Positions 45,033 through 64,000 of a stretch of DNA of 64,000 nucleotides are shown in pieces. The DNA lies in NCBI GenBank assembly GCA_021792135.1, contig JAJYVF010000001.1, forward strand, positions 62,001 to 126,000. Reading direction: 5' to 3'. This DNA comes from Acidobacteriota bacterium (lineage in GTDB: Bacteria > Acidobacteriota > Terriglobia > Terriglobales > Acidobacteriaceae). The notes under the pieces are model-generated. The model saw only the letters and a program-made list of their open reading frames with translations, was not told where the DNA came from and ran no database searches. Within the stretch, counting starts at the first letter, position 1. Each line of letters opens with the position of its first letter. The position numbers were made by a program, and so were the translations under genes.

Positions 45033-47429
45033 ATGTCCCGTCCTTTGCTGATTGCTCTGCTTGGCTGCTGCGGTCTTTCCGCTCTCGCGCAGACGAATCG
45101 TCCGCTCAATCCCGATCTTGTGGCGGCGCGATGGAAGGCGTCCTGGATTGCCAGCCCCACCGCGCTCGCGAAGGCTCCGGGCGTGTTCTACTTCCGCAAA
45201 GATCTGACGCTGAGCAGCGTGCCGGAGCACTACTGGGTCCATGTGAGCGCCGATAACCGCTACGTGCTGCACATCAACGGCAAGTACGCAGCCGAAGGGC
45301 CAGCCCGAGGCGACCTGTTCCACTGGCGGTTCGAAACGGTTGACCTCGCGGCTCTGTTGCATCCGGGAACCAATGTAATCGCGGCCGTGGTCTGGAATTT
45401 CGGTGAGTTGGCTCCCGTCGCGCAGATGAGCAACCGAACCGGATTTCTGATGCAGGGTGACACGAGCGAAGAAGCGGCGGTGAACACGGGCAGGGACTGG
45501 CGCGTTCGCAGCGAGCCGGGCCGCGGGGCTCTCGGCCACGAGGGCGCGCATGGCTACTATGCGGCCGGTCCGGCGGAGAGGATCGACGGCCGGGTGCTCG
45601 ACTGGGGCTGGGATCAGCCCGGAGAGGACGGCACGGGCTGGGAGACTCCGCAACCGGTGGGTCACGCCGCCACCCGCGAAGCCCAGGACGCCGACAACAA
45701 CTGGGAGCTGGTCGAGGACCCGCTGCCCCCCATGGAACATCAGCTGGTGGACGCAGGCACGCCGGTGCGCGTGGAGGGGCTGCCATCGCTGCCGAGTTTT
45801 CCCGCGTCTGCTCTGGAGATCCCGGCCCATTCGCATGTCGTGCTGCTGCTCGATCATCGCGTGCTCCAGACTGCCTATCCTGAGCTGACCATCAGCGGCG
45901 GCAGGGACGCCGAGATCCGGATCACCTATGCTGAGGCGCTGTACGATGCCAATGGAGAGAAGGGCAATCGGAACGATATCCAGGGCCGGCATATTGAAGG
46001 GATCACCGACGATTACGTTTCCGGCGGGGGCGAGGCCCGCGTCTATCAGCCCCTGTGGTGGCGCACCTGGCGCTATCTGCAGCTGGATATAACCACGAAG
46101 GCGGAGCCTCTGCGGCTCGATTCGCTGCGTGCCTGGTTCTCGGCGTATCCCTTCGACGCGAAGGCGGCCATCAGCGGAGACATTCCGGAACTGCAGCGAC
46201 TGTGGGAGACAGGCTGGCGCACGGCCCGCCTGTGTGCACACGAAACCTACATGGATGCACCCTACTGGGAGCAGCTGCAGTACGTCGGCGATACGCGGAT
46301 CCAGGCCCTCATCTCGTATGTCATGACCGGCGACAGCCGCCTGGCACGCCAGGCCGTGACCAATATCGACGATTCCCGCATACCCGAGGGGATCACGCAG
46401 AGCCGCTATCCGTCAGGACTGCCGCAGTTCATTCCGCCGTTCTCTCTTTTGTGGGTGGGGATGCTGCACGACTACTGGATGTACGTCGACGATCTGCCGC
46501 TGGTGAAGGAGACGCTGCCCCATACGCGCGGCGTGCTCGACTGGTATGCGGCCCGGCTGCGCCCCGATGGTCTGCTGGGCAAGGTTGGCTGGTGGGAGTT
46601 CGGCGACTGGACCGAAGACTACCCTGCCGGCGTTCCGCCCCAGGATGCAGACGGCGGCTCAACCTTCCTGACGCTGCAGTTCATCGAAGGGCTGCGCGAT
46701 GCGGAAGGCATGGAAGCCCGATTCGGCAGCCCGGAGCGGGCAGCCCGTTACCGCGCCCTGATCGGGAAGGCCTCGCAGGCTCTGAATCGCGAGAGCTGGG
46801 ATCCGAAATACGGCCTGTACGCCGATACCCCCGCGAAGAAGACGTACAGCCAGGAGGCCAACATACTGGCTGTATGGCTGGGTGTAGCGCCGCGCGGGCA
46901 GCAGGCGCCCATTCTGCGCAGGCTCCTGGCGTCGAAGCCGAATGAAGCGGTGACCGTCGATGGCGGCCCGGTTCCGCCGTTGTCGATTCCGAGCTATTAC
47001 TTCCGCTTCTATCTCACGCGGGCGCTGGTGCAGGCGGGCATGGCCGATCAGTACATCAGGGAGCTGGGTCCCTGGTACAACATGCTGCGTCTGGGGCTGA
47101 GCACCTGGGCGGAAACGCCGGAGCCGACGCGCTCCGACTGCCACGCCTGGAGCGCCAGTCCGAATTACGACCTGCTGACCGTGGTGGCCGGAATCCAGCC
47201 GGGATCGCCCGGATTCAAGACGGTGCGGATTGAGCCGCATCTGCGCGGGCTGCACCAGTTGAATGCGTCGATGCCGCATGCGGGCGGCCTGATCCATACC
47301 GTATACAAACTCGACGGGAGCCGGTGGAAGGCCACAGTGACGCTGCCCCAGGATCTGAGCGGAGAGCTGGTGTGGGGCGGAAGGACCTATCCTCTGCATC
47401 CCGGCAGTCAGACCGTTGCACTGCCCTGA
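45033..47429 (+). CDS. Exported GH78-like alpha-L-rhamnosidase
   Basis: 798 residues. A signal peptide (LLIALLGCCGLSALAQ) is followed by an N-terminal carbohydrate-binding beta-domain (WKASWIASPTALAKAPGVFYFRKDL, VHVSADNRYVLHINGKYAAEG). The (alpha/alpha)6 catalytic region is marked by ETYMDAPYWEQLQYVGDTR (about 402-420), the GH78 acidic cluster, by VGWWEFGDWTEDYPAG, and by TRSDCHAWSASPNYDLL near the end. GH78 enzymes release terminal L-rhamnose from plant and microbial polysaccharides or glycosides. The C-terminal beta-sandwich (GFKTVRIEPHLRGL) is typical. Starts the carbohydrate region; the ribosome site is weak. Confidence 0.9.
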   Translation: MSRPLLIALLGCCGLSALAQTNRPLNPDLVAARWKASWIASPTALAKAPGVFYFRKDLTLSSVPEHYWVHVSADNRYVLHINGKYAAEGPARGDLFHWRFETVDLAALLHPGTNVIAAVVWNFGELAPVAQMSNRTGFLMQGDTSEEAAVNTGRDWRVRSEPGRGALGHEGAHGYYAAGPAERIDGRVLDWGWDQPGEDGTGWETPQPVGHAATREAQDADNNWELVEDPLPPMEHQLVDAGTPVRVEGLPSLPSFPASALEIPAHSHVVLLLDHRVLQTAYPELTISGGRDAEIRITYAEALYDANGEKGNRNDIQGRHIEGITDDYVSGGGEARVYQPLWWRTWRYLQLDITTKAEPLRLDSLRAWFSAYPFDAKAAISGDIPELQRLWETGWRTARLCAHETYMDAPYWEQLQYVGDTRIQALISYVMTGDSRLARQAVTNIDDSRIPEGITQSRYPSGLPQFIPPFSLLWVGMLHDYWMYVDDLPLVKETLPHTRGVLDWYAARLRPDGLLGKVGWWEFGDWTEDYPAGVPPQDADGGSTFLTLQFIEGLRDAEGMEARFGSPERAARYRALIGKASQALNRESWDPKYGLYADTPAKKTYSQEANILAVWLGVAPRGQQAPILRRLLASKPNEAVTVDGGPVPPLSIPSYYFRFYLTRALVQAGMADQYIRELGPWYNMLRLGLSTWAETPEPTRSDCHAWSASPNYDLLTVVAGIQPGSPGFKTVRIEPHLRGLHQLNASMPHAGGLIHTVYKLDGSRWKATVTLPQDLSGELVWGGRTYPLHPGSQTVALP

Positions 47430-48647: not shown

Positions 48648-49804
48648 TTATGACCGCAGCCGGACCAGCACCAGAATCCCCTGCGGCGGCAGCGTGACCC
48701 TGCGCTGACCGGGAGGGCGCGTGGCATCGCCCAGGACGATGCGCGTCCGGTCCGGCAGATCCAGGGCAGCGTCCTGCGTTCCATGGTTGATCAGCACAAA
48801 GACGCTGCGCCCCTCGCCCACTCTCCTGCAGGCCTCGACTCCGGCGGGCAGCGGACCGAATACAGGCGTCACCCCGGCCTGCTGAACGAGGCGGCCGATC
48901 ATCTTCTGCATCAGGCTGGGGCCGAGCAGCGCGCCCAGATAGTCGAGGGTGCCGCTGCCGATGCGGCGCTCGATCATCGCAGGCTGCCCATCCAGCCATC
49001 CATTACCGGCGCCATAGTGCAGCAGCGCCGTGGTCGCAGCATTGCGGAGCGAGAGCTGCTCGGCCCATATATCGGCATCGCCCGTTCCGAACGCCCCCTG
49101 CACCGGAATCGCGCTGTCAATCGCATAGAACTGCTCCACCCGCCCACCGAGGGGACCGCCAGCGGCCCCGGCTGTCGCTCCGGACTCAATCCGTCCTCCT
49201 CGTTCTTCATGCCGGAACGCGGCCCCAGCAGCAGATGCCCGCCCTGACGCACATAAGCAAGCAGATGGTCCGCCAGTTCCTGAGGAAGGACGTTGAGCGC
49301 GGGAGCGATCACCAGCCGGTATCCATCGAGCGGAGCCGTGGCCTCCACGATGTCCACCGACTGCGCAGCAGCGAGGAGGGGGCGATAAAAATCGAGCAGG
49401 ACCTGCAACTCGTTGTACCGCACCGTATGAGGCTGAAAATCGATGGCCCAGCGGCTGTCGCAGGTCAGAATGAGAGCCACCTGGGAGCGCGGCGCCGTGC
49501 CCGCGAGCGCAGGCGCAGCCCGGTGAAATTCATCGGCCGTCCGGCGGATCTCCGGATCGATGGGCAGCGGGGTTCCGTCCGGACCGACGATCGCCCCGTG
49601 ATACTGCTCCTGGCCGTTGAGCCCGGCAGCCTGCATGAGGGAGAGATCCACCTCCCATCGCTGCTCCGGCCACTGCTCGGGATACCAGGCTGCGCCCATG
49701 AGGGGCTGCCCCGGAAGCGACAGCGGCGCGGCTGCCCGGGCCCGGGCAGCCGCGCCGCCGCAGAGCACAGCCACAGCGAGCGCTTGCAGGATCTGCCTAC
49801 GCAA
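48648..49804 (-). pseudogene. Decayed GH42 beta-galactosidase gene with internal deletion and frameshift
   Basis: A TTG at 49804 overlaps the MaoC stop and opens a signal peptide (ILQALAVAVLCGGAAARA). LMGAAWYPEQWPEQRWEVDLSLMQAAG is the N-terminus of GH42 enzymes. It is joined directly to LNGQEQYHGAIVGPDGTP, sequence from the far end of the catalytic barrel, so about 300-350 residues including both catalytic Glu are gone. The trimerisation domain follows (YNELQVLLDFYRPL to HLLLGPRSGMKNEEDGLS). At about 49150 the frame shifts and the C-terminal part continues as GPLGGRVEQFYAIDS through GILVLVRLRS. No active enzyme is possible. Confidence 0.82.
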
Positions 49805-50252
49805 GGCCGCTTCTCTTCTCCACGAGGTACAGATGATCGCAAACCAGCACCGTCTGCTGTTCCTGATTCCGCACCTCGATCGCCTCAACCACCACACCGT
49901 GCTTCGGCCGCCTGGGCTCTTCCCTAAGTTCACGGATCGTGGCCGTGGTGCAGATCGTATCGCCGATAAAAACGGGACGAACAAAGCGCACGCGATCATA
50001 GCCGTACGACATCGCGCGGGGATTGATGTCCGCGGCGGTCATTCCGACTGCAATGCTCAGCACCAGCGTGCCATGAGCCATCCTGCGCCCAAAGGGCTGC
50101 GTACGGCACCACACTTCGTCCATATGATGCGGATACAGGTCTCCCGTATGTCCGGCGTGCAGCACGATGTCCGCCTCGGTCATGGTGCGGCCGCTCGTGA
50201 CACGCTGGTCGCCAGTCTGGTAATCCTCGAAAAATGCTTCGTGAAGCCTCAT
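49797..50252 (-). CDS. MaoC-like hotdog hydratase
   Basis: 151 residues. The hydratase-2 motif is present as [18 protein letters not shown], giving the catalytic Asp and His of R-specific enoyl-CoA hydratases and MaoC proteins. [18 protein letters not shown] and [18 protein letters not shown] are the usual following blocks. The family hydrates enoyl-CoA or related mesaconyl/methacryloyl thioesters. Divergent from the SBP-like/CoA-transferase/IclR operon with an 87-bp gap, which places a CoA-linked hydratase and a CoA-transferase under one control region. Its stop overlaps the GH42 remnant's start. Confidence 0.87.
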
Positions 50253-50272
50253 GGTTGCTCAGCGCCGGGGGA

Positions 50273-50318
50273 AGGCATGCCTGTCAGCTGTGAAATCTCT
50301 TTTTGCTGATAAAATCAG
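50273..50318. promoter_or_regulatory. Palindromes in the MaoC/SBP divergent promoter
   Basis: Two palindromes lie in the 87-bp divergent gap: AGGCATGCCT (50273-50282) and CTGAT-AAA-ATCAG (50306-50318). The second is followed by TATAAC (50328-50333), a -10-like element for the plus-strand gene, with TTGCTG 18 bases before it. They are candidate sites for the IclR protein encoded at 52651. Confidence 0.45.
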
Positions 50319-50339
50319 AGGGCCAATATAACACCGCTA

Positions 50340-51512
50340 ATGACCCAGTCTCAACAAGGCCGCCTTCGCGGGATCACCTGGAAGCACAGCCGGGGACTGA
50401 TGCCGATGCTGGCAACGGCGCAACGCTTCGAGGAACTGCATCCCGAGGTTGCTGTCTCCTGGGGAACACGGTCGCTGCAGTCCTTTGCGGACCAGTGCGT
50501 GGAAGATCTTGCCCGCGGGTACGACCTGCTGGTCATTGATCATCCATCGTGCGGACACGCGGCGCGGTCGGGCGTCCTGGCGCCTCTCGACGATTTGCTT
50601 CCGGCTGAATTCCTGCGCGATCAGGAGCGGAATTCCGTCGGGCAGTCGTACACCAGCTATCTGTGGAATGGCCATCTCTGGGCTCTCCCCATCGACGCGG
50701 CGGCGCCGGTCAGCCTCTACCGTCCGGACCTGCTGCACAGGTTTTCCGTCACCCTCCCTCGCACGTGGGAAGAGCTGATGGACCTTGCTCGCCGGGGTTT
50801 CGTGGCAGTACCGGGTCTCGCCATCGACGGCCTGATGCACTTCTTCATGCTCTGCATCGCGCTCGGCGAGGAGCCATTTGCGGCGGACGATGGTGTGGTC
50901 ACTCCGGAGGCGGGAGCCAGGGCCCTGCAGCTGCTGCGCGAGTTGCTGCAGGCGTGTCCCCCGGATTGCCTGGAGGCGAACCCCATCGCAGTCTGGAACC
51001 GGCTGTCGTCAGCTGACGATGCCGTGTACTGCCCGTTCGCCTATGGTTATTCGAATTACAGCCGCCGCGGCTATGGAACCTATGTCGTCGAAGCAGGCGA
51101 ACTGGTGAGCTTCGGCGGCAGGCCGCTGCGATCCGTGCTGGGTGGGGCGGGTCTCGCGATCTCCTCACGCTGCAGGGATCTTCCGGCAGCCGCGGCGTAT
51201 GCGAAGTGGGTTGCGGATCCCGAGTGCCAGAGGACGCTCTATTTCGATTCCGGCGGGCAGCCTGGCCATCGCGCGGCGTGGCTCGATCCCGAGGTGAACC
51301 GGCGCTCCCATGGTTTCTTCGAAAAGACGCTGCCCGCGCTGGATCGCGCCTGGCTGCGTCCGCGCTTCGATGGCTTCATTGAATTTCAGGATCGCGCCGG
51401 GCGCCTCCTGCATTCCTGGCTTCGCCAGGGCGGTGCGGAAGAGGAAGTCGTGGGGGAGATGAATCGTCTTCTGCATGCGGCGCGCCAGCCCCGGGGAGTT
51501 ACCGCCTCATGA
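50340..51512 (+). CDS. Solute-binding-protein-like protein without signal peptide (first)
   Basis: 390 residues. The fold is that of family 1 extracellular solute-binding proteins: [83 protein letters not shown], and [29 protein letters not shown]. The N-terminus ([18 protein letters not shown]) has no hydrophobic segment, lipobox or Tat motif, and the upstream frame gives none, so the protein should remain in the cytosol. No ABC permease or ATPase is in the window. Its ATGA overlap with the CoA-transferase gene means tight coupling. A ligand-sensing or substrate-handling role is inferred. Confidence 0.82.
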
Positions 51513-52654
51513 AACCGCTCGAAGGCCTTCTCGTCATTGACCTCAGCCAGTTCCTGGCGGGCCCCTCAGCCTCTCTGCGCCTCGCGGATCTGGGTGCGCG
51601 CGTCATCAAGATCGAACGGCCTTCCGGCGGCGACCTGTGCCGGAACCTGTACATTTCCAATCTCGAGCTGGATGGGGACAGCACACTCTTCCACTCGATC
51701 AATCGCAACAAAGAGAGCCTGGCCGCCGACCTGAAGGATCCTGCGGAACGCGCGGCCGTGCTTGCGCTGGCGGCCAGGGCTGACGTGCTCATCCATAATT
51801 TTCGTCCCGGAGTCATCGAGAAGCTGGGTCTCGGCTATGACACGCTGAGCCGGCAATTCCCCCGTCTCGTCTATGCGGAAGTCAGCGGATTTGGGCGAAC
51901 GGGGCCGTGGTCGCGCAAACCCGGACAGGACCTGCTGGTGCAGTCGCTCTCCGGACTGCCGTGGCTCAATGGCGACGCCGGTCAGCCGCCGGTGCCTTTC
52001 GGCCTCGCCGTCGCCGATCTTTCTGCGGGAGCGCACCTGTGCCAGGGGATCCTTGCGTGCCTCGTTCGCCGTGGGATCACCGGCCAGGGCGCAAGAGTGG
52101 AGGTGAGCCTGCTCGAATCGATCCTCGATCTGCAGTTCGAGGTGCTGACCACGTTTCTGAACGACGGCCACAAGCTGCCGCAGCGCAGCGTCCGCAACAA
52201 CGCGCATGCCTACCTTGGAGCGCCCTACGGCATTTACTCCACAAAGGACGGTTATCTCGCGATCGCCATGGGTTCTCTGGCGGCTCTGGCCGAACTGCTG
52301 GAGTGCCCCGCCCTGCTTGCTTACACCGACCCGAAGGCGGCATTCGAACGCCGCGACGAAATCAAAGCTGTGCTGGCCGAACACCTGGGGCAGCGCACCA
52401 CCACCGAGTGGCTGGCGCGGCTGGAACCTGCCGACTACTGGTGCGCCGATGTTTTCACATGGCCGCGGCTGCTGCAGCACCCGGCCTTCCAGGCGCTCGA
52501 CATGATCCAGACTGTCGGCCGCGACGAAGAGGTCACGATGCAGACGACGCGATGCCCCATCCGCATCGACGAGACGCTGCTCAGGAGCCCGCGGGGAGCG
52601 CCGCGCCTGGGCGAGCATACGGAGGCGATACGGCGGGAATTTGGGCTGCCATGA
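51509..52654 (+). CDS. Class III CoA-transferase (CaiB/BaiF family)
   Basis: 381 residues. [35 protein letters not shown] is the family's N-terminus; [33 protein letters not shown] and [12 protein letters not shown] follow. Asp141 in the last motif corresponds to the aspartate that forms the CoA-linked intermediate in formyl-CoA transferase. The enzyme moves CoA between carboxylic acids. It overlaps the SBP-like gene upstream and the IclR gene downstream by four bases each. With MaoC on the other side of the promoter it implies activation and then hydration of an acid, perhaps a sugar-derived one. Confidence 0.92.
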
Positions 52655-53481
52655 TCGCCGCAACGGACGCTCCTGGTGCCGCACCTGGAGCAGGGAAATC
52701 GCGAACGAACCCCAGGTACTCCGTTCCCGCCCTGGAAAAGGGGCTGGACATTCTTGAAGCGCTCGCCGCGGCGCAGGTTCCGCAGTCGCTCACCGAGCTG
52801 GCCCGCACGATGGACCGCACGCCCAGCGAGCTTTTCCGCATGCTCGATGCGCTGGAGCGGCGCTCCTGGATCGCTCGGGATCCTGTCTCCGAGGGCTATC
52901 ACCTGACGCTCCGGCTCTATGAGCTGGCGCATACGCACTCGCCTGTGGATCACCTGCTCAGGGCGGCGGCAATTCCCATGGCTGAACTGGCAGAGAAGAT
53001 TCATGAGTCCTGCCATCTGTGCGTGCTCAACGGACCCATGCTGGTCGTGATCGCGCAGACGGAAAGCCCCGAGCCGGTGCGGCTCTCCGTCGAGATCGGC
53101 TATCGCGTGCTGCCTCTGACCACCGCTTCCGGCCGCGTGCTGGTGGCCTTTCTCGACCCGGCCGAGCAAAAGCGATTCCTGGCAAACGATGCCACCTGGG
53201 CTGCCATGTCCAGGCGGGAAAAGGCAGACCTGTCTGCGGAACTGGCCCGCATTCGCAGGCAGGGCCATCTGCTTGCATCGAGCACGCGGCGCACGGGTAT
53301 CGACGTCTCCTGTGTGGTCGGCAATCCCCGCGTAGGCGTACGCGCGGTGCTGGGAGTGCCCTTCCTGCCCGGCTCCGCGAACGAAGGCAAAGAACGTCGG
53401 CTGATTGCCACGATTGAGGCCTGTGCCGCGCGCATTACAAACGCGCTCGGCCTGACCCCGCCCTTCTCTCGCCGCCGCTGA
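52651..53481 (+). CDS. IclR-family transcriptional regulator
   Basis: 276 residues from ATG 52651, overlapping the CoA-transferase stop by four bases. The winged helix is clear: [45 protein letters not shown]. The effector-binding domain has [42 protein letters not shown], and [25 protein letters not shown]; the Cys in DVSCVV occupies the usual ligand-pocket position. IclR regulators control aromatic, glyoxylate and sugar-acid catabolism, often from divergent promoters. The closest control region is the 50.27-50.32 kb palindrome pair, and it may also act on the glycosidase genes downstream. Confidence 0.93.
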
Positions 53482-53506
53482 AACCGCTTCTCGAACCGGA
53501 GGTACC

Positions 53507-54661
53507 ATGTCAGCTTTCAACCGCCGCCAGTTTCTGGGCAGTGCCGGGGCCACACTGGCTGCCGCCGGACTCGAACCCGCTGCCCGCGCCTCCTCCGGGC
53601 ACGTCGCCACGCCAACGGCCCTTCAGACGCCGTTCAAACTGAACCGCCTGGTCCTGAAAGGCACAGGGAACGCGGGAGATTTCGACGAGAAGTTTGTCGA
53701 CTGCCCTTTCGTCTTCCGCGACGGCGCTGAGTTCCGGATGACCTATATCGGCTTCGACGGCACCGGCTATCAAACCGGCCTTGCGCGCTCCACGGATCTT
53801 GTCCGCTGGGACCGCGTCGGCTGCATCCTGCGGCGCCAGCCGGACAATCCGATCTTCCGCTACAACATCGCCATGACGTGGATCGTTCGCGAAAACGACG
53901 CCCTCAGCCCCGGCAATCTGAAGAAGGTGCGTGGACGCTATCTGGGCGCATGGCATGCCTACCCGAATGCCGGCATGGAAGCCGGCCCCGCGGTCATCGG
54001 CCTCTGCTGGAGCGACGATCTGATGCACTGGGAACTCGAAGAGCCCTGCCTGCGGTCCGACGATCCGGACACCGCCGCATGGGAACAGGGCGGCCTCTAC
54101 AAGCCATGCCTGGTCGAATACGAGGGCCGCTTCTGTCTCGTCTACAACGCGAAAACCCGGCCTCTGCCGGCAGGCCAGGGGGGCGGCTGGCACGAACAAA
54201 TCGGCCTGGCCACCTCAACGGATCTGAAGCACTGGACCCGCTCGCCGTACAATCCCGTCATCCGCAACGGGCCGCCAGGAAGCTGGGATGACCGCTTTGC
54301 CAGCGATCCGTGCGTCGTGCGATGGCGGAACGAGTGGGCTGTTTTCTATTACGGACTGAGTTCGAAGGACGGCAAGGCCCGCGATCTTCTGGCCCTCGGC
54401 ACGTCGGTGGATCATCTGGTCAAGACAGACAGCATCCTGGTGAATGCGGGACCGCCGGGCTCTGTCGACGACGATTACGCGCACAAGCCTTCGGTCATCG
54501 CATGGAATGGAGCCTTTTACCACTTCTATACCGCTGTTTCCGGAAAATACCCGCACGATATTCGCGGCATCTCCGTCGCGCGGTCGCACCCGTGGAAACA
54601 GCAGTTCACCGCGCACCAGACCGGGGGACCGGGTTCGAGAAATGGTACAGGCCGGACTTAA
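53507..54661 (+). CDS. Tat-exported beta-propeller glycosidase-like protein (GH43/GH32/GH130-like)
   Basis: 384 residues, with CCGGAGG directly before ATG 53507. A Tat signal NRRQFLGSAGATLAAAG is followed by a five-bladed-propeller pattern in which each blade begins with an acidic or hydrophobic motif: VDCPFVFRDGAEFRMTYIGF, TGLARSTDLVRWDRVG, IGLCWSDDLMHWELEEPC, LATSTDLKHWTRSPYNPVI, SDPCVVRWRNEWAVFYYG, and HKPSVIAWNGAFYHFYTA. This repeat style is shared by GH43, GH32, GH117 and GH130 proteins. The exact family and substrate (arabinoside, fructoside or mannoside) cannot be set by eye. Follows IclR by 25 bp. Confidence 0.82.
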   Translation: MSAFNRRQFLGSAGATLAAAGLEPAARASSGHVATPTALQTPFKLNRLVLKGTGNAGDFDEKFVDCPFVFRDGAEFRMTYIGFDGTGYQTGLARSTDLVRWDRVGCILRRQPDNPIFRYNIAMTWIVRENDALSPGNLKKVRGRYLGAWHAYPNAGMEAGPAVIGLCWSDDLMHWELEEPCLRSDDPDTAAWEQGGLYKPCLVEYEGRFCLVYNAKTRPLPAGQGGGWHEQIGLATSTDLKHWTRSPYNPVIRNGPPGSWDDRFASDPCVVRWRNEWAVFYYGLSSKDGKARDLLALGTSVDHLVKTDSILVNAGPPGSVDDDYAHKPSVIAWNGAFYHFYTAVSGKYPHDIRGISVARSHPWKQQFTAHQTGGPGSRNGTGRT

Positions 54662-54740
54662 CCCGGAACACGCGCGCCGGAGCTTTTTGGTATCCTGGCC
54701 GAGTGCGCAGCCAAGACCTCTGCATGAAAGGCCTATCCCG

Positions 54741-55970
54741 GTGACCACGCTGCGAATCGCGTTTCGTCAGTTCTCCGACTTCGAGAACGCCCTGGCGGCA
54801 CAGATTCGTCAATATTGCGTGCACGCTCCCGGCGTAACCATCGAAGCGGTTCCTCTGGAGCTGGAAGCTCTCCATCGGGAGCTGTTCGCTGAGAGCGGGC
54901 TCCGCTCCGGCAAGTGGGATATCGGCACGCTGGTGACAGACTGGCTGGCCGACGCCATCGCTGCCGGTACGATCGAGAACCTGACTCCCTGCATGGACGT
55001 CGCGCCGTTCCCCGACTGGCCCCATGGATGGGCGCCCTCCCTCATCGAACCGCTCAACTTCGGCGGCAGTTACTACTGCATTCCCTGGCACGACGGACCG
55101 GAATGCCTGATTTACCGCACCGATCTCTTCAGTTCCCCGCGCGAGCAGCAGGCGTTCCGCAAAGCTTGCGGCTACGATCTGGCTCCGCCGAAGACCTGGA
55201 AGCAATTTGAGGAAATCGCGCGCTTCTTCACGCGCCCGGCAGAAAACCTCTACGGCACGCTGTTCGCCTGTTATCCCGACGGTCACAACACGCTTTACGA
55301 TTTCGCGCTCCAGGTATGGAGCCGCGGGGGTGAGTTGCACGACCGTTCCGGCCTGCCTGCGCTGGCGACGCAGCAGTCCATCGCTGCCCTGGATTTTTAC
55401 CGCCGCATCGTTCGCGACCCCACAATTTGCCATCCGCAGTCGATGGGGATGGATTCCGTGCTGTCGGGTGAGGCCTTTCTCCGCGGCTCTGTTGCCATGA
55501 TGGTGAACTGGTTTGGTTTCGCCGCGCGCAGCGCTCGCGCCGGCGGCGCGCTGGAGGGCAAGGTGGCGCTGGCGCCGATACCCTGCTCGGAGGGCCTCGC
55601 CGCCGTCTCTCTCTCCGTTTTCTGGACGATGGCCATCGGAAGCGGCTCGAAGCACAAGCGCGAAGCCTGCGATTTTCTCCGCTTCCTCGCCGGTCCGGAG
55701 CAGGACCGCGAAGTAGTGCGGCATGGCGCTGTCGGCGTTCGGCTCTCCACCTGGCGTGACCCCGAAGTCCAGCGCACGATTCCCCCTTTCGCGCAGATTG
55801 AGTCGATCTCGCTCGGCGCGCGCCGCCTGCCACGAACTCCGAGCCTGCCCGCCTTCGCGGAAATCGTTAACGGCATCGTCGAATCCGCGCTGAGAACCGA
55901 CGAACCCTCTGCCTCGATCCTGCAGCGCGCCCAGCAGCAGGCGGTCGCTCATGGGATTCATTTCCAGTGA
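54741..55970 (+). CDS. Solute-binding-protein-like protein without signal peptide (second)
   Basis: 409 residues from GTG 54741. Solute-binding blocks are present: TTLRIAFRQFSDFENALAAQI, SGKWDIGTLVTDWLADAIAAG, YYCIPWHDGPECLIYRTDLF, PKTWKQFEEIARFFTRP, and SVFWTMAIGSGSKHKREACDFLRFLAG. As in the protein at 50340, the N-terminus has no signal peptide; the upstream frame is soon closed or lacks a hydrophobic leader. The two proteins share domain order but are clearly diverged, so they may bind different ligands. No permease follows. Probably cytosolic; function inferred only from context. Confidence 0.82.
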   Translation: MTTLRIAFRQFSDFENALAAQIRQYCVHAPGVTIEAVPLELEALHRELFAESGLRSGKWDIGTLVTDWLADAIAAGTIENLTPCMDVAPFPDWPHGWAPSLIEPLNFGGSYYCIPWHDGPECLIYRTDLFSSPREQQAFRKACGYDLAPPKTWKQFEEIARFFTRPAENLYGTLFACYPDGHNTLYDFALQVWSRGGELHDRSGLPALATQQSIAALDFYRRIVRDPTICHPQSMGMDSVLSGEAFLRGSVAMMVNWFGFAARSARAGGALEGKVALAPIPCSEGLAAVSLSVFWTMAIGSGSKHKREACDFLRFLAGPEQDREVVRHGAVGVRLSTWRDPEVQRTIPPFAQIESISLGARRLPRTPSLPAFAEIVNGIVESALRTDEPSASILQRAQQQAVAHGIHFQ

Positions 55971-56083
55971 TTCTCCGGCCGAAGATGGCGCATGGATGAC
56001 GATCTCACCGGACGCGCCCGGGCACTATGCGGTGAGACTCCACGAAGGCGGCCGGACAAACTGATTCTGTGGAGGGAAGTTCG

Positions 56084-57895
56084 TTGCCGGGACACAAGGA
56101 CTTTTCGCGCAGGCATTTCCTCGCTGGCGCCGCAGCGGCCGTGGCTTCGGGCGCATTGCGGGCAGAAACCCGTCCCGTCAACACGGCGGACACGCTCCAC
56201 GAATTCGACTATGGCGCAGTCCGGCTGACGGGAGGACCGCTTCAGGAGCAGTACGATCGCCTGCACGCTTCGTACCTTGCACTCGATAACGACCGTCTGC
56301 TGAAGGTCTACCGGGAGCACGCGGGGCTTCCTGCCCCAGGCGCCCCGATGGGAGGCTGGTATGGCCCGGACGGCTTTGTGCCGGGTCACTCGCTGGGGCA
56401 GTACATCTCAGGACTGGCGCGCATCGGGAAAACGACAGCCGACGCGTCATGCCACGACAAAGTTCGCGCGCTCGTGGAAGGATTCGCGGCAACGATGGGT
56501 CCGCGCGACCAGGTCTTCGCGGCGCCCAATGCAGAGAAAATCTGGCCGTGCTACGTCCTCGATAAACATCTGATCGGCCTGATCGATGCGTATCGGCTGA
56601 GCGGCGTAGCTCAGGCTCGCGAACTTCTGCCTCGCGTCTTTCGCGGCGCGGTGCCGTACATTCCGGAGCGCGGACACGACCGCGTCGGCAGGAAAGACCC
56701 ACCTTACGACGAGCCGTACATCATGCCGGAAAATCTGTTTTCCGCCTGGGAACTGACCGGCGACCGGGCTTTCTACAATCGGGCCATCGCATATCTGCTC
56801 GACCGCGAGTATTTCGATCCTCTGTCTCGCAACGAAGACGTATTGCCGGGCCGCCACGCGTACAGCCACGTGATGGCGCTGAGTTCGGCGGCCAAAGCGC
56901 GGCTGGTCCTCGGCGAGAGCAGATATCTCGATGCCATGAGGAATGCCTGGGAGTTCCTCCGCAGCGAGCAGCAGTACGCTTCGGGCGGCTGGGGCCCGAA
57001 CGAAGCTTTCGTCGAGCCCCACAAGGGCCAGCTCTATGAGAGCCTCCGCACGACCGAGGATCATTTTGAAACCCCGTGCGGCAGCTACGCAGCCACCAGG
57101 CTGGCACGCTATCTGCTGTGCGCCACCGGTGACGCCGGCTATGGCGACGGTCTGGAGCGGGTCATCTTCAACGCGCTTCTGACAGTGAAGGAACCGGACT
57201 CCGGCGGCGATTATCCCTACTACTCAAGCTACAATGCGGCGGCACGCAAAGGCTATTACCCGCAGAAGTGGCCGTGCTGCTCGGGCACCCTGGTGCAGGG
57301 TGTAGCCGATTATGTCAGAGACATCTACTTCCGCACGAATGACGGTCTCGCGGTCGTTCTGTACACGCCTTCGCAGGTGCGCTGGAGCGAGCAGGGCGCA
57401 TCCGTCACAGTCACGCAGCAAACAGGTTATCCGCTGGCAGAAAGAACCACGCTGCGCATCGACTGTTCCGCCCAAACCACGTTTTCGCTGAAGCTGCGTA
57501 TTCCCGGCTGGCTGGATCGGCCGCCGAAGCTTCTCGTAAACGGCAGACTTACTCCGGTCGAAACCCGGCGAGGATGGGCCGTGCTCCGCCGTCAATGGAC
57601 GGGGGGCGACACAGTCGAACTGGAACTGCCGCAGAATTTCCATACCGAACCCATCGACGGCCAGCATCGCGACACGGCGGCCCTGCTGCGGGGCCCTCTT
57701 GTCTGCGTCGAGATCAACCCCGTGCGCGGCGGATCTGCGCTCGTTCCCATTGGAACGTTGCGCCGAATCCCGGAAGCACCAGGCTTTTACTGCGAGCAGA
57801 AGTCCGGGAGAACGCGAGTGTATCTTCCGCTCTGCTGCGTTCGCAATGAAACCTATACAACGTATTTCGCAACTCCCGATTCGCAGCCGGTATGA
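56084..57895 (+). CDS. Tat-exported GH127-like beta-L-arabinofuranosidase
   Basis: 603 residues from TTG 56084, which has GGAGGGAAG just upstream; a GTG at 56069 would lie inside the ribosome site. A Tat signal SRRHFLAGAAAAVASGA is followed by the DUF1680/GH127 (alpha/alpha)6 domain. In GH127 the zinc site uses a Glu and three Cys; here DHFETPCGSYAA supplies Glu and Cys and KWPCCSGTL the Cys pair (398-399). The first motif is ETPC rather than the ETC of the known bifidobacterial enzyme. The C-terminal beta domain starts near LRIDCSAQTTFSLKLRIPGWLDRPP. Likely releases L-arabinofuranose or a related sugar outside the cytoplasm. Confidence 0.87.
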   Translation: MPGHKDFSRRHFLAGAAAAVASGALRAETRPVNTADTLHEFDYGAVRLTGGPLQEQYDRLHASYLALDNDRLLKVYREHAGLPAPGAPMGGWYGPDGFVPGHSLGQYISGLARIGKTTADASCHDKVRALVEGFAATMGPRDQVFAAPNAEKIWPCYVLDKHLIGLIDAYRLSGVAQARELLPRVFRGAVPYIPERGHDRVGRKDPPYDEPYIMPENLFSAWELTGDRAFYNRAIAYLLDREYFDPLSRNEDVLPGRHAYSHVMALSSAAKARLVLGESRYLDAMRNAWEFLRSEQQYASGGWGPNEAFVEPHKGQLYESLRTTEDHFETPCGSYAATRLARYLLCATGDAGYGDGLERVIFNALLTVKEPDSGGDYPYYSSYNAAARKGYYPQKWPCCSGTLVQGVADYVRDIYFRTNDGLAVVLYTPSQVRWSEQGASVTVTQQTGYPLAERTTLRIDCSAQTTFSLKLRIPGWLDRPPKLLVNGRLTPVETRRGWAVLRRQWTGGDTVELELPQNFHTEPIDGQHRDTAALLRGPLVCVEINPVRGGSALVPIGTLRRIPEAPGFYCEQKSGRTRVYLPLCCVRNETYTTYFATPDSQPV

Positions 57896-58027
57896 ATTCG
57901 TCAGCAGACCGGGATGTCCCAATGCCCGCCCAATCCAGGGAGAAAGGCCCGGGTCGCGCTTCGCAGCTTTTTTGCCGGTGCCGGGAGGGCGCCGTTCAGG
58001 CTTGATCCCGATCCCCCGACCCCAGCC

Positions 58028-59350
58028 TCAGTCGAAGAAGTCCCGATCCTCGTCCGAAAGGTGTGCTTTGGCGGCCCGCACATTGAACGTGACGCCAAGC
58101 CCCGGCTTATCCCAGACGTCGATAAAGCCGTCTTTGACAATCGGATCCGGGAGGCCTTCCACAATGTCATACCACCACTCCGGCTGGCCCTTGGCGTATT
58201 CGAAAGCAATATAGTTCTGCGGGCAGACCGCCCCCAGATGCACCTGCGCCGCAACGCCCAGGAGTCCGTCGAAGATTCCGTGCGGAGCCACCAGGATTCC
58301 GTGGAGATTGGCATACTCGGCGATCCACTTCAGTTCCGCGATTCCGCCCACATCCTCCGGATCCGGCCCGATCACATTCACCGCCTGCGTCTCGATCAGG
58401 TCCTTGAAGTTCTCCCGCAGATAGATCTCCTCGCCGGTATGAATCGGCGTGGAGGTGCTGTCGGTTACCTGCTTGAAGACCTGAGCGTTCGGGTAAGGCG
58501 TGTAATCGCCCGTGATCAGGTCTTCGAGCCACGTAATGTGCAGCGGCTCCACCGCGCGCGCAAAGCGGATGGCATCCTTGACCACCCAGCCGGGCCCGCA
58601 GTCCAGCGCCAGGCCCACTTCGTCGCCCAGGACCTTCTTCGCCGCTTCGACGCAGGCGATGACGTTGTCGATGCCCCGTTCCGTCATCAACCCGCGATCC
58701 ATGTAGGGCGGCCCGGCCTTCCATTGCTTGCCGTACCAGGAATTCGGGAGGGCCGTCATCATAGCCGCGTTGTGGTAGCCCACGGGCATCTTGAAGAGCG
58801 TGTAGCCCTCTCTGGCTTCCTTCATCTGCGCCGCCAGATCGGCATAATCCTGTGGTGTGTGGAGCTCCCTCTGCCCATTGTTTTCGGAGTTTCCGTAAGG
58901 GCGGACGCGGTCGCGGATCTTTCCCCCCAGCAGCTGATGCACTGGCAGTCCCGCCGCCTGACCCGCCACGTCCCACAGCGCGATTTCGATGGCGCTCACC
59001 GCCGCCCCCCATGGCTTAAACGCGCCCATGCGCCGGATCTTCAGCATGATCCTCGCGACGTTCGTGGGGTCTTCACCGATGAGATAGTTCCTGTAGAACA
59101 GCACCATCGGTTTGAGATACGGCTTGGCGGATTCTGCCTGACCGTAGCCGGAAATCCCCTGATCCGTGACGATCCGCACCGTCGGATTGCGGCCGATGAT
59201 GGCACATCTGAGGTCGGTGATCCTGACCGGCGCACTCCCCGTGCGTTTTTCCGGGGGAGCCATCGCAGCCGCCGCCTGACCTGCCAGCACCGTTGCAGCC
59301 GCAGCTCCCGAAAGCGATCCCACGAATCCTCTGCGCGTCAACTCCCCCAT
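58028..59350 (-). CDS. Tat-exported enolase-superfamily enzyme (mandelate racemase/sugar-acid dehydratase type)
   Basis: 440 residues; AAGGAG precedes ATG 59350. The N-terminus TRRGFVGSLSGAAAATVLAG is a Tat signal. The enolase capping domain holds VRIVTDQGISGYGQAE; the barrel gives the metal ligands Asp250 (LALDCGPGW), Glu276 (TWLEDLI) and Glu307 (PIHTGEEIY). Lys187 (LFKMPV) and His357 (VAPHGIFDG) are the candidate acid/base residues. This matches sugar-acid dehydratases and racemases such as galactonate or rhamnonate dehydratase. Export of such an enzyme is unusual because the products normally feed cytosolic aldolases. Convergent with the GH127 gene. Confidence 0.9.
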   Translation of the reverse strand: MGELTRRGFVGSLSGAAAATVLAGQAAAAMAPPEKRTGSAPVRITDLRCAIIGRNPTVRIVTDQGISGYGQAESAKPYLKPMVLFYRNYLIGEDPTNVARIMLKIRRMGAFKPWGAAVSAIEIALWDVAGQAAGLPVHQLLGGKIRDRVRPYGNSENNGQRELHTPQDYADLAAQMKEAREGYTLFKMPVGYHNAAMMTALPNSWYGKQWKAGPPYMDRGLMTERGIDNVIACVEAAKKVLGDEVGLALDCGPGWVVKDAIRFARAVEPLHITWLEDLITGDYTPYPNAQVFKQVTDSTSTPIHTGEEIYLRENFKDLIETQAVNVIGPDPEDVGGIAELKWIAEYANLHGILVAPHGIFDGLLGVAAQVHLGAVCPQNYIAFEYAKGQPEWWYDIVEGLPDPIVKDGFIDVWDKPGLGVTFNVRAAKAHLSDEDRDFFD

Positions 59351-62612: not shown

Positions 62613-64000
62613 CTAAAACGAGTTGTCCGCATTCCCAAACGGCGGATGTCCAATGAGATCCGGGTTATAGTGGTGCAGCGCGGCCAGCTTCGCTGCAGGC
62701 ACAAACCTATCCCATTGTGTGACAGCTTTGGGTTCCGGCAAAGTGGACACTGTCTGGAAATGAATGGTCACAATCTGTTGCGGCCTTACGGAAACCCGAT
62801 AAGTCCCTGGTCCTTGTAGTTCGGACTGCTCACGGCCTGTCAGATCGGTGAGGACTGCTCGTTTGTGCGGAAGCGTCAGCGCAACGGTTGCGATTCCTTT
62901 GCGACCGAAGCATTCAACCATGCGGAGCTCAATGTGATCGCCCTCGCACCTGAGTGCTTCGACAATGACATTATCAGATGTTTGAAGGAACGAATGCGGA
63001 CTCTGAACCGCCCGACGTTCGATGAGAATCGGCGGGCAATTATATTCCCACGCCGCCTGCGGAATACGCGCGTCCTCCCATGAATCCTCGCGCGGATAGA
63101 GAGCATAGGAGATCACATGTTTCCCCTTTCCGCTCAGCCACGAATTTGGATACCCGTGATACCTGTTCTCCGCATTGAGAAGATAGATAAGGGGCGTGCT
63201 TCCGTCCAATTCGCGTCCAGTTGCGCCGCGATCGAAAATGGCGACACCGCCGCTACCGGCGAAGTTGTAGTCGATCCAGCGGACAGCAGGAACGATGCCT
63301 CGCGTCCAGCCGAAGAGATCGGGATCGGGCTTGCTCCATGGACCGTGCGAGAACCCGTAGGGAATGCCGCGGCGAATGTCCGATATGTCCATGGCAAGAG
63401 GAAACTGAGCAACCACCACGGTGTAATCCGGAATGTCATTCAGCTCGGTCTCAAAATCGATGCGGCGGCTCTCATGATAGAGACGGATGACGCGTCGAAT
63501 TGCTCCGCCTCCGTAAAACGTGCCCTTCACCTCGATCGTGCAGGTCACGGGTCCTCGTAGCGATCGGGTGATTGATGGGTGATCGCTGGAGGTTGCCAGT
63601 TGCACGCGTTCAGGAGCGGGAGGCATGAAGTCGGCCGGCGATGGCTCCTGTTTCCGGGGGCGTTCGGCAACAATCACATTCGCCGGCCCCGCCAGCAGTT
63701 CGCGCTGGGATTTTCTGAACCTGATGCTCGTGACAGCGCCGGATTGGCGGTCAACCCGTACTGAATAATACTTCGTCTCAATCCTGTCCGGGAGATCGAC
63801 AGGCGTGGGTGGCGCAGCCGCGCGATGCTCCAGCTTCCAGCCGCCGACGCCACAGGAGGGGATATCCATCCGGCAGAGAACTGTGTTGTCCGGAAGCAGT
63901 TCGCTGTCGGTACCTGCGATTGTTGCCCCCAGGGGCAGCCTAAGCGAGACCGGATCGTTGCGGTTCCAGTTCAGCTGGTTAAAAAGGCCAATATCATCAC
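62613..64000 (-). CDS. GH38 alpha-mannosidase, C-terminal part (N-terminus outside window)
   Basis: The frame is open at the right edge; 462 C-terminal residues are visible. GLFNQLNWNRNDPVSL is the start of the beta-sandwich that follows the GH38 catalytic domain. YYSVRVDRQSGAVTSIRF, RRIDFETELNDIPDYTVV, QFPLAMDISDIRRGIPYGF, YNFAGSGGVAIFDRGATG and ECFGRKGIATVAL are typical C-terminal GH38 blocks. Catalytic residues lie beyond the window. GH38 enzymes remove alpha-mannose residues. Convergent with the GH5-like gene, which suits a shared mannan- or glycoprotein-glycan-degrading role; cell location cannot be judged without the N-terminus. Confidence 0.87.
   Translation of the reverse strand, partial: DDIGLFNQLNWNRNDPVSLRLPLGATIAGTDSELLPDNTVLCRMDIPSCGVGGWKLEHRAAAPPTPVDLPDRIETKYYSVRVDRQSGAVTSIRFRKSQRELLAGPANVIVAERPRKQEPSPADFMPPAPERVQLATSSDHPSITRSLRGPVTCTIEVKGTFYGGGAIRRVIRLYHESRRIDFETELNDIPDYTVVVAQFPLAMDISDIRRGIPYGFSHGPWSKPDPDLFGWTRGIVPAVRWIDYNFAGSGGVAIFDRGATGRELDGSTPLIYLLNAENRYHGYPNSWLSGKGKHVISYALYPREDSWEDARIPQAAWEYNCPPILIERRAVQSPHSFLQTSDNVIVEALRCEGDHIELRMVECFGRKGIATVALTLPHKRAVLTDLTGREQSELQGPGTYRVSVRPQQIVTIHFQTVSTLPEPKAVTQWDRFVPAAKLAALHHYNPDLIGHPPFGNADNSF

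Follow-up and report, generated by a model that had tools for sequence, protein, structure and literature searches.

What would a bacterium do with sugar-binding-protein folds that stay in the cytosol and are encoded next to coenzyme A (CoA) enzymes? The question is raised by a gene cluster in the window, a stretch of 64,000 nucleotides from contig C24 of a 5.1-Mb Acidobacteriota genome. There a gene for a solute-binding-protein (SBP)-like product, SBP1, is followed by genes for a CaiB/BaiF class III CoA-transferase (CaiB) and an IclR-type regulator, with a divergent gene for a MaoC-type hydratase on one side and a second SBP-like gene, SBP2, on the other (Table 1). Comparison with related loci indicated that this core of SBP1, CaiB, SBP2, MaoC and sometimes IclR is a real and widely distributed module, apparently unrecognised so far, and very probably one functional unit in CoA-linked sugar-acid metabolism. 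Its neighbours point to the non-phosphorylative catabolism of 6-deoxyhexoses of the rhamnose/fucose type, and its reaction could possibly be a CoA-dependent dehydration of sugar acids. In line with the initial annotation of this DNA, which knew of no named pathway with such a combination, the open-access literature that we searched held no account of the gene set, although a search of this kind leaves its absence in print unproven.

Conservation and composition of the core

The comparison covered 96 loci: 80 from a scan of genome contigs, 12 on plasmids, three from whole genomes and the window itself, with L003 and L004 excluded as duplicates. The scan used an SBP1 alignment as query and gave at least 594 candidate stretches; 556 of those listed were related and the best 80 were used. 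Scanning genome contigs with the single SBP1 sequence gave no match where the alignment query did find relatives. A tblastn search of 72,556 plasmid records with SBP1 gave matches in 145, the E. coli genomes searched gave one match of 96 bases, and a single-sequence query (E ≤ 1e-15) found SBP1 in two of 246 other Acidobacteriota genomes, both of the same family as the host. Neighbouring genes were mapped with hidden Markov models, each built from a few relatives; the names RhaI, RhaB, RhaD, KdgK, Eda and ALDH are our own assignments, made by inspecting the seed sequences, and the remaining names follow database matches.

A CaiB gene was found within 11 kb of SBP1 in 92 of the 96 loci and within 200 bp in 84. 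A hydratase gene, of MaoC or crotonase type, lies inside the 11-kb limit in 91, and in six loci a crotonase takes the place of MaoC. Gfo/Idh genes occur in 80 loci and SBP2 (at least 250 bits) in 74; IclR is encoded near SBP1 in 36, with at least 100 bits in 34. Weak matches to the SBP2 model (54-126 bits) in L010, L011, L012, L014 and L015, loci with annotated SBPs of ATP-binding cassette (ABC) importers, were not counted. Counted by frame, 90 of 100 SBP1 genes have a CaiB on the same strand with centres less than 1.7 kb apart, and the usual order in Bacteroidota is SBP1-CaiB-CaiB-SBP2-Gfo/Idh-MaoC. Among the four loci that lack CaiB, L017 stops at a contig edge just after SBP1, and L022, L054 and L087 are true exceptions. 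In the stretch 9992-18060 of L087, from Fodinibius, no CaiB or MaoC was found; SBP1 stands there beside an IclR gene, a GH29-type gene and what we take to be genes for rhamnose isomerase, a kinase and an aldolase/dehydrogenase. The initial annotation had proposed a single system and had named neighbourhood conservation as a test that could refute it. The core came through this comparison: SBP1, CaiB, MaoC or crotonase, SBP2 and in part IclR are conserved together, whereas the exported propeller, GH127 and enolase-type proteins that had been included in the system mostly are not.

Because the 80 scan loci were best hits and hence biased towards the module, 199 evenly drawn Flavobacteriaceae genomes served as an independent sample (thresholds E ≤ 1e-40 for SBP1 and E ≤ 1e-20 for CaiB). 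SBP1 occurs in 17 of these genomes and CaiB in 23; all 17 SBP1 genomes carry CaiB as against six of the 182 others (Fisher p 6e-20). The two genes also lie close together: with 6 kb as the limit, 30 of 38 CaiB genes have SBP1 nearby, and 17 of 20 SBP1 genes have CaiB nearby. The window CaiB is the sole PF02515 match in its whole genome, and the fact that this lone gene adjoins SBP1, here and in most relatives, argues for more than chance. Going by record titles, the module ranges over Acidobacteriota, Bacteroidota, Pseudomonadota, Verrucomicrobia, Bacillota and Thermomicrobiales; a halophilic archaeon also has it, with SBP2. A distant SBP1 subfamily in Flavobacteriaceae (L168, L169, L170 and L152) is accompanied by a crotonase, a lactonase-model match, a short-chain dehydrogenase/reductase (SDR) and an RraA-model match, and by CaiB in three of the four stretches. 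Near the module in L097 and L166 there are genes that we take for a four-carbon sugar-acid kinase and a PdxA-type dehydrogenase, a hint of another sugar-acid branch.

Both SBP-like proteins look cytosolic, as had been claimed, because no signal peptide was found in 53 SBP1 and 34 SBP2 sequences. Their N-termini lack a strongly hydrophobic segment (maximal 12-residue means of 1.23 and 1.04, compared with 2.44 and 3.10 for two periplasmic SBPs), the starts of relatives without annotation having been picked by script to match the family length. AlphaFold predicted sugar-binding-protein folds with high confidence (pLDDT of 95.0 for SBP1 and 94.8 for SBP2), and the top Foldseek matches of both in the PDB were maltose-, trehalose- and sulfoquinovose-binding proteins; a few of the 50 structure titles listed for SBP1 name other proteins, and these are probably maltose-binding-protein fusions. 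Thirty columns are invariant among the 53 SBP1 relatives, including W41, D62, D67, Y107, D119, Y237, Q307, W314 and R340. In Sinorhizobium, Roseibium and Rufibacter, among others, members of this apparently cytosolic family carry annotations as parts of transporters. We rejected the possibility of mis-started periplasmic SBPs since neither family has a signal peptide (the starts being partly chosen by family length) and, for the window, that of an ABC importer remnant, since the genome has ten matches to binding-protein-dependent (BPD) permeases and none of them is on contig C24. Some Pseudomonadota do have genuine ABC importers on the flanks of the module.

On the enzyme side, CaiB carries an aspartate, D170, in all 167 sequences compared, and this residue aligns with an Asp of the closest solved relatives, YfdE and succinate-hydroxymethylglutarate CoA-transferase. 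We take the catalytic Asp of class III CoA-transferases to be Asp169 of formyl-CoA transferase. The alpha-methylacyl-CoA racemase branch has its catalytic His in a GHD motif; CaiB has Q140 at the place of that His in 166 of 167 sequences, followed by D141, which disfavours a racemase. In a midpoint-rooted tree of the 167 sequences, the 72 loci with two CaiB genes each contribute one copy to an 83-leaf clade (SH-like support 0.848), the other copy lying outside it; this clade contains the window CaiB and represents the CaiB1 side. Two-CaiB loci of this kind were found in Bacteroidota, Klebsiella, Neiella, Croceibacterium and a Verrucomicrobia metagenome-assembled genome. Five of nine proteobacterial single copies (L008, L010, L011, L012 and L015) group with the second paralogue and L066 with the first, and L013, L014 and L016 stand apart. 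In three Hymenobacter loci CaiB1 and CaiB2 are naturally fused into one protein of 792-818 aa (L047 11324-13702, L053 11278-13659 and L071 11259-13715). These fusions argue that the two paralogues work as one heteromeric enzyme and speak against two unrelated steps.

Deoxyhexose genes and the dehydratase slot

The deoxyhexose theme appears among the loci as GH78/GH106, GH29, FucP and RhaT genes. In Klebsiella spallanzanii (L072) the genes are those for a lactaldehyde reductase (665.7 bits; model cut-off 537), MaoC, rhamnose mutarotase, a DHDPS-family aldolase, a fuconolactonase-like amidohydrolase (107 bits; cut-off 400), Gfo/Idh, a RhaT-like permease, SBP1, two CaiBs and IclR; SBP1, CaiB1, CaiB2 and MaoC occupy the place of the expected dehydratase. 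A Flavobacterium locus (L061) has on one strand an L-fucose dehydrogenase (355.9 bits; cut-off 300), a lactonase (263.5; 400), a fumarylacetoacetate hydrolase (FAH)-family hydrolase (376; 500) and an SDR, and divergent from them SBP1-CaiB-CaiB-SBP2-Gfo/Idh-MaoC-FucP (FucP 355.8; 280.4), with no dehydratase in the locus. Near the module in Pedobacter L034 are GH78-type genes (one of them cut), GH106, GH2 and FucP, together with a protein that matches the N-terminal part of NF049877 at 509.7 bits and that we take to be GH137-type. The Halostagnicola larsenii plasmid locus (L158 1-21188) combines SBP2, CaiB and MaoC with two Gfo/Idh genes, an enolase-type gene, a mutarotase, an amidohydrolase, an alpha-L-fucosidase, IclR and an AMP-binding CoA-ligase-type gene.

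No enolase- or UxaA-type gene was found in any of the 73 two-CaiB loci, fusions counted, within the stretch compared (up to 11 kb on each side). At the level of the genome, L061 has two MR/MLE matches of about 100 bits in frames of about 345 aa and one of 26.3 bits, one IlvD-family gene and one UxaA gene, the latter inside a KdgK/Eda operon. In seven of nine Flavobacterium genomes (G247-G255) no match to PF13378 exceeds 110 bits; G247 and G398 do have UxaA, although as part of a KdgK/Eda operon. For the fucose operons of the Flavobacteriaceae the expectation was that FAH operons without a dehydratase track SBP1. Among 50 FAH places, 17 lie within 10 kb of an enolase-type gene, two within that distance of SBP1 and 31 near neither, and an enolase- or UxaA-type gene stands within about 12 kb of FAH in two of ten places in SBP1 genomes versus 26 of 40 in the others (p 0.014, shared descent ignored).

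As to the hydratase, the top NCBIfam match of the window MaoC is the C-terminal part of PaaZ, at 89.2 bits under a cut-off of 562.8. A second MaoC paralogue lies 1.5 kb past the right end of the window (L117 1521-2060, 278.8 bits), and genes of this second type sit after CaiB and before SBP2 in L020, L023, L025 and L027. On the exchange of hydratase families, PMC9007349 describes a crotonase-type enzyme that does the work of the MaoC-type domain of PaaZ.

A proposed CoA cycle and its rivals

In the Klebsiella and Flavobacterium loci no conventional gene covers dehydration of the sugar acid, and CoA-transferases, a hydratase and SBPs remain without an assigned step, leading us to propose a cycle like that of carnitine, where the class III CoA-transferase CaiB and the hydratase CaiD together perform a CoA-cycling dehydration of a 3-hydroxy acid. 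Our best explanation, held tentatively and as a whole, is that the core is a CoA-dependent module of non-phosphorylative deoxyhexose catabolism that has spread horizontally. A 6-deoxyhexose of the L-rhamnose or L-fucose type would be oxidised to its lactone and this opened to the sugar acid. The cytosolic SBP-fold protein would hold the acid and offer its carboxylate to the CaiB-type transferase, which would swap CoA onto it from a donor thioester. Where enolases rely on a metal ion to overcome the acidity barrier, a thioester lowers it; here the thioester would acidify the C2 proton so that MaoC, or a crotonase in other lineages, could eliminate the 3-hydroxyl. The enol would tautomerise to a 2-keto-3-deoxyacyl-CoA and the CoA be handed to the next sugar acid, while the free 2-keto-3-deoxy acid might pass through an aldolase, or an SDR and an FAH-family hydrolase, to pyruvate and lactaldehyde or lactate. 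IclR may sense an intermediate of the pathway. That the sugar acid becomes a CoA thioester, as initially supposed, is still the most economical reading and agrees with the archaeal AMP-binding CoA-ligase-type gene; the reaction itself we infer. In its most specific form, of which we are less confident again, sugar acids would be activated by a class III CoA-transferase with cytosolic SBP folds as substrate-binding subunits, and fatty-acid-type hydratases would replace the metal-dependent enolase/IlvD enzymes, the arrangement having spread over bacterial phyla and in part to a halophilic archaeon.

A number of results weigh against such a cycle. No Gfo/Idh or lactonase gene was detected in the 64-kb window with the models used. 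SBP1 stands without a nearby CaiB in L022, L054 and L087 and in three of 20 places of the Flavobacteriaceae sample, and so is no obligate subunit of CaiB. Among the 19 one-CaiB loci, 11 have an enolase- or UxaA-type gene nearby (versus the two-CaiB loci, nominal p 1.4e-9 with shared descent ignored). Elsewhere in its genome the Klebsiella has 17 PF13378 matches; two of the nine Flavobacterium genomes, G248 and G255, have an MR/MLE match above 160 bits, and the seven without a strong PF13378 match carry PF00920 genes, one each in five and two in G250 and G253. In the host's own genome an SDR-enolase-FAH cluster (C24:138463-141599, or L117 12463-15599) begins about 12 kb right of the window, some 28 kb downstream of SBP1. 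Its FAH reaches 228.9 bits to NF053535, below the cut-off of 500. A conventional dehydratase may thus be present and the CoA step redundant or otherwise used. The crotonase-type branch would end differently, since in L042, L093 and L096 an aldehyde dehydrogenase follows the crotonase (471.7 bits to NF007497 in L042, cut-off 500) and an FAH match is absent from these genomes (E ≤ 1e-30). The outcome for the fucose operons is modest and mixed: among the regions retrieved, complete operons lack a dehydratase in four of four SBP1 genomes but also in six of 12 others (one cut by a contig end), in the SBP1 genomes G272 and G282 FAH and an enolase-type gene are at most 2 kb apart, and the counterexamples G425 and G408 have no SBP1 and no PF13378 match (E ≤ 1e-36), just UxaA in a KdgK/Eda operon, IlvD not having been searched for in these two. 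A sugar-acid thioester with a free 4-hydroxyl is, moreover, expected to lactonise.

One alternative is that the module acts on an acidic or carboxyl-branched sugar, such as the aceric acid of rhamnogalacturonan II or a uronate, with CoA placed on that carboxylate, MaoC eliminating or hydrating in the ring-derived skeleton and the deoxyhexose genes adjoining as their sugars are co-released. The Pedobacter locus, with its NF049877 match, GH2, GH78-type and GH106 genes beside the module, would suit this, as would the relation of the window GH127 and propeller to the same models and the ring-opening hydratase domain of PaaZ as top NCBIfam match of MaoC. We think it unlikely, given that FucP, RhaT, rhamnose mutarotase, L-fucose dehydrogenase, FAH and lactaldehyde reductase are consistent with a neutral 6-deoxyhexose as substrate and that GH127 matches the aceric acid hydrolase model NF049879 weakly (79.4 bits, cut-off 950). 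Similarly improbable is a scheme in which the SBP-fold proteins themselves act on sugar lactones or 2-keto-3-deoxy acids, as enzymes or as chaperones, with CaiB and MaoC sharing the operon but serving a different acyl-CoA. The top structural matches of the SBP fold are sugar-binding proteins, and SBP1 adjoins CaiB in most loci and co-occurs with it almost perfectly at the genome level; in its favour are SBP1 genes without CaiB beside SDR and enolase-type genes (L054 and L171) and the acidic, aromatic and arginine residues among the invariant SBP1 columns.

Ordinary acyl-CoA metabolism, for instance of a short hydroxy acid or an ester side chain of a glycan, co-regulated with polysaccharide genes and with SBP1 and SBP2 as sugar sensors, would agree with the solved relatives of CaiB, with esterases or a fucosidase near the module in L005 and L009, and with the thiolase and AMP-binding genes 4-7 kb away in Roseibium L010, by ring-hydroxylating dioxygenase genes. 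We give it little credence, since a thiolase or beta-oxidation set does not recur in the other gene lists inspected (in which many genes are unnamed) and the partners that do recur there are sugar oxidoreductases, lactonases, mutarotases and permeases for sugars. A chance neighbourhood, or mis-started periplasmic SBPs of an ABC importer, could appeal to the SBP family name and to the importers flanking the module in some Pseudomonadota; against the missing signal peptides, the contig free of BPD permeases and the co-conservation it is scarcely credible and, for the core, refuted.

The window and related systems

The eight genes and their frames are laid out as the initial annotation described them, which both open reading frames and protein families bear out (Table 1). 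MaoC and SBP1 are separated by 87 bases, and the four-base ATGA overlaps reported between SBP1 and CaiB and between CaiB and IclR are present in the DNA, at 51509 and 52651. Twin-arginine N-termini, taken as signals of twin-arginine translocation (Tat), were likewise found in all three proteins for which they had been claimed, the propeller, GH127 and enolase.

Table 1. Genes of the cluster, with positions in the window.
Gene product	Position	Strand	Basis and remarks
MaoC-type hydratase (R-specific enoyl-CoA hydratase family)	49797-50252	-	PF01575 73.1 bits; divergent from SBP1
SBP1, SBP-like, 390 aa, no signal peptide	50340-51512	+	PF01547/PF13416
CaiB/BaiF class III CoA-transferase	51509-52654	+	PF02515 338.5 bits, residues 4-371 (full length)
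IclR-type regulator	52651-53481	+	PF09339 and PF01614
Tat-signal propeller glycosidase-like (GH43/GH32)	53507-54661	+	PF04616 45.8 bits; RR motif
SBP2, second SBP-like	54741-55970	+	PF13416/PF01547; GTG start inferred from relatives
Tat-signal GH127 protein	56069-57895	+	PF07944 153.1 bits
Tat-signal enolase-superfamily (MR/MLE) protein	58028-59350	-, converging	PF13378 151 bits

The propeller weakly resembles the N-terminal part of the glucuronidase/beta-L-arabinofuranosidase model NF049877 (108.5 bits, cut-off 1800), and a related propeller (at least 100 bits) stands beside the module in 23 loci besides the window, mostly of Pedobacter and Hymenobacter. Among 11 acidobacterial or other non-Bacteroidota loci, GH127 occurs in one (L059), the propeller in none and an enolase-type gene in four (L019, L020, L039 and L054). 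The top NCBIfam match of the window enolase is galactonate dehydratase at 160.4 bits, under the cut-off of 311, with no equivalog-level match. It had been suggested that this exported enolase supplies the acid for the cytosolic enzymes; nothing shows this, and in the two-CaiB loci no enolase- or UxaA-type gene was found within the stretch compared. GH78-type (45033-47429) and GH38-type (62613-63869) glycosidase genes flank the cluster in the window, and a GH38 gene is near the module in L020 too. Just past MaoC, at 48648-49750 on the minus strand, lies what by eye we take to be a broken GH42-type glycosidase in two frames.

The proposed CoA-dependent dehydration can be set beside several known systems. 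It shares with the carnitine CaiB-CaiD cycle a transferase and a hydratase encoded together, and the CaiB structures are matched by the family profile, but differs in the sugar neighbourhood, the usual MaoC, the SBP-fold partners and the two CaiB paralogues. The non-phosphorylative L-fucose/L-rhamnose pathway (dehydrogenase, lactonase, dehydratase, and aldolase or SDR plus FAH) is matched by the genes around L061, L072 and others, and its downstream SDR and FAH are present in the genome of the window; unlike that pathway, the two-CaiB loci have no enolase- or UxaA-type dehydratase in the stretch compared, and we know of no part played in it by CaiB, MaoC or SBPs. Family and catalytic Asp are common to class III CoA-transferases acting on succinate-hydroxymethylglutarate, formyl-CoA (YfdE) or benzylsuccinate, and the benzylsuccinate enzyme (9fn0 A and B) also has the two-gene organisation, whereas in the module the paralogues are fused in three Hymenobacter loci and go together with an SBP-fold gene. 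Sugar-binding proteins of ABC-type family 1 (MalE3 and the trehalose/maltose- and sulfoquinovose-binding proteins) have the fold predicted for SBP1 and SBP2; the latter differ in lacking a signal peptide and a permease gene on the contig, in the 30 columns invariant among 53 SBP1 relatives and in their coupling to CoA enzymes.

The dehydration of sugar acids is normally the work of metal enzymes. If our proposal were correct, a route by way of thioesters would link sugar catabolism with CoA chemistry and could explain the dehydratase missing from two-CaiB deoxyhexose loci such as those of Flavobacterium and Klebsiella. It would give a role to a cytosolic protein family annotated as transport components, and would represent an unrecognised route for breaking down sugars such as rhamnose and fucose.

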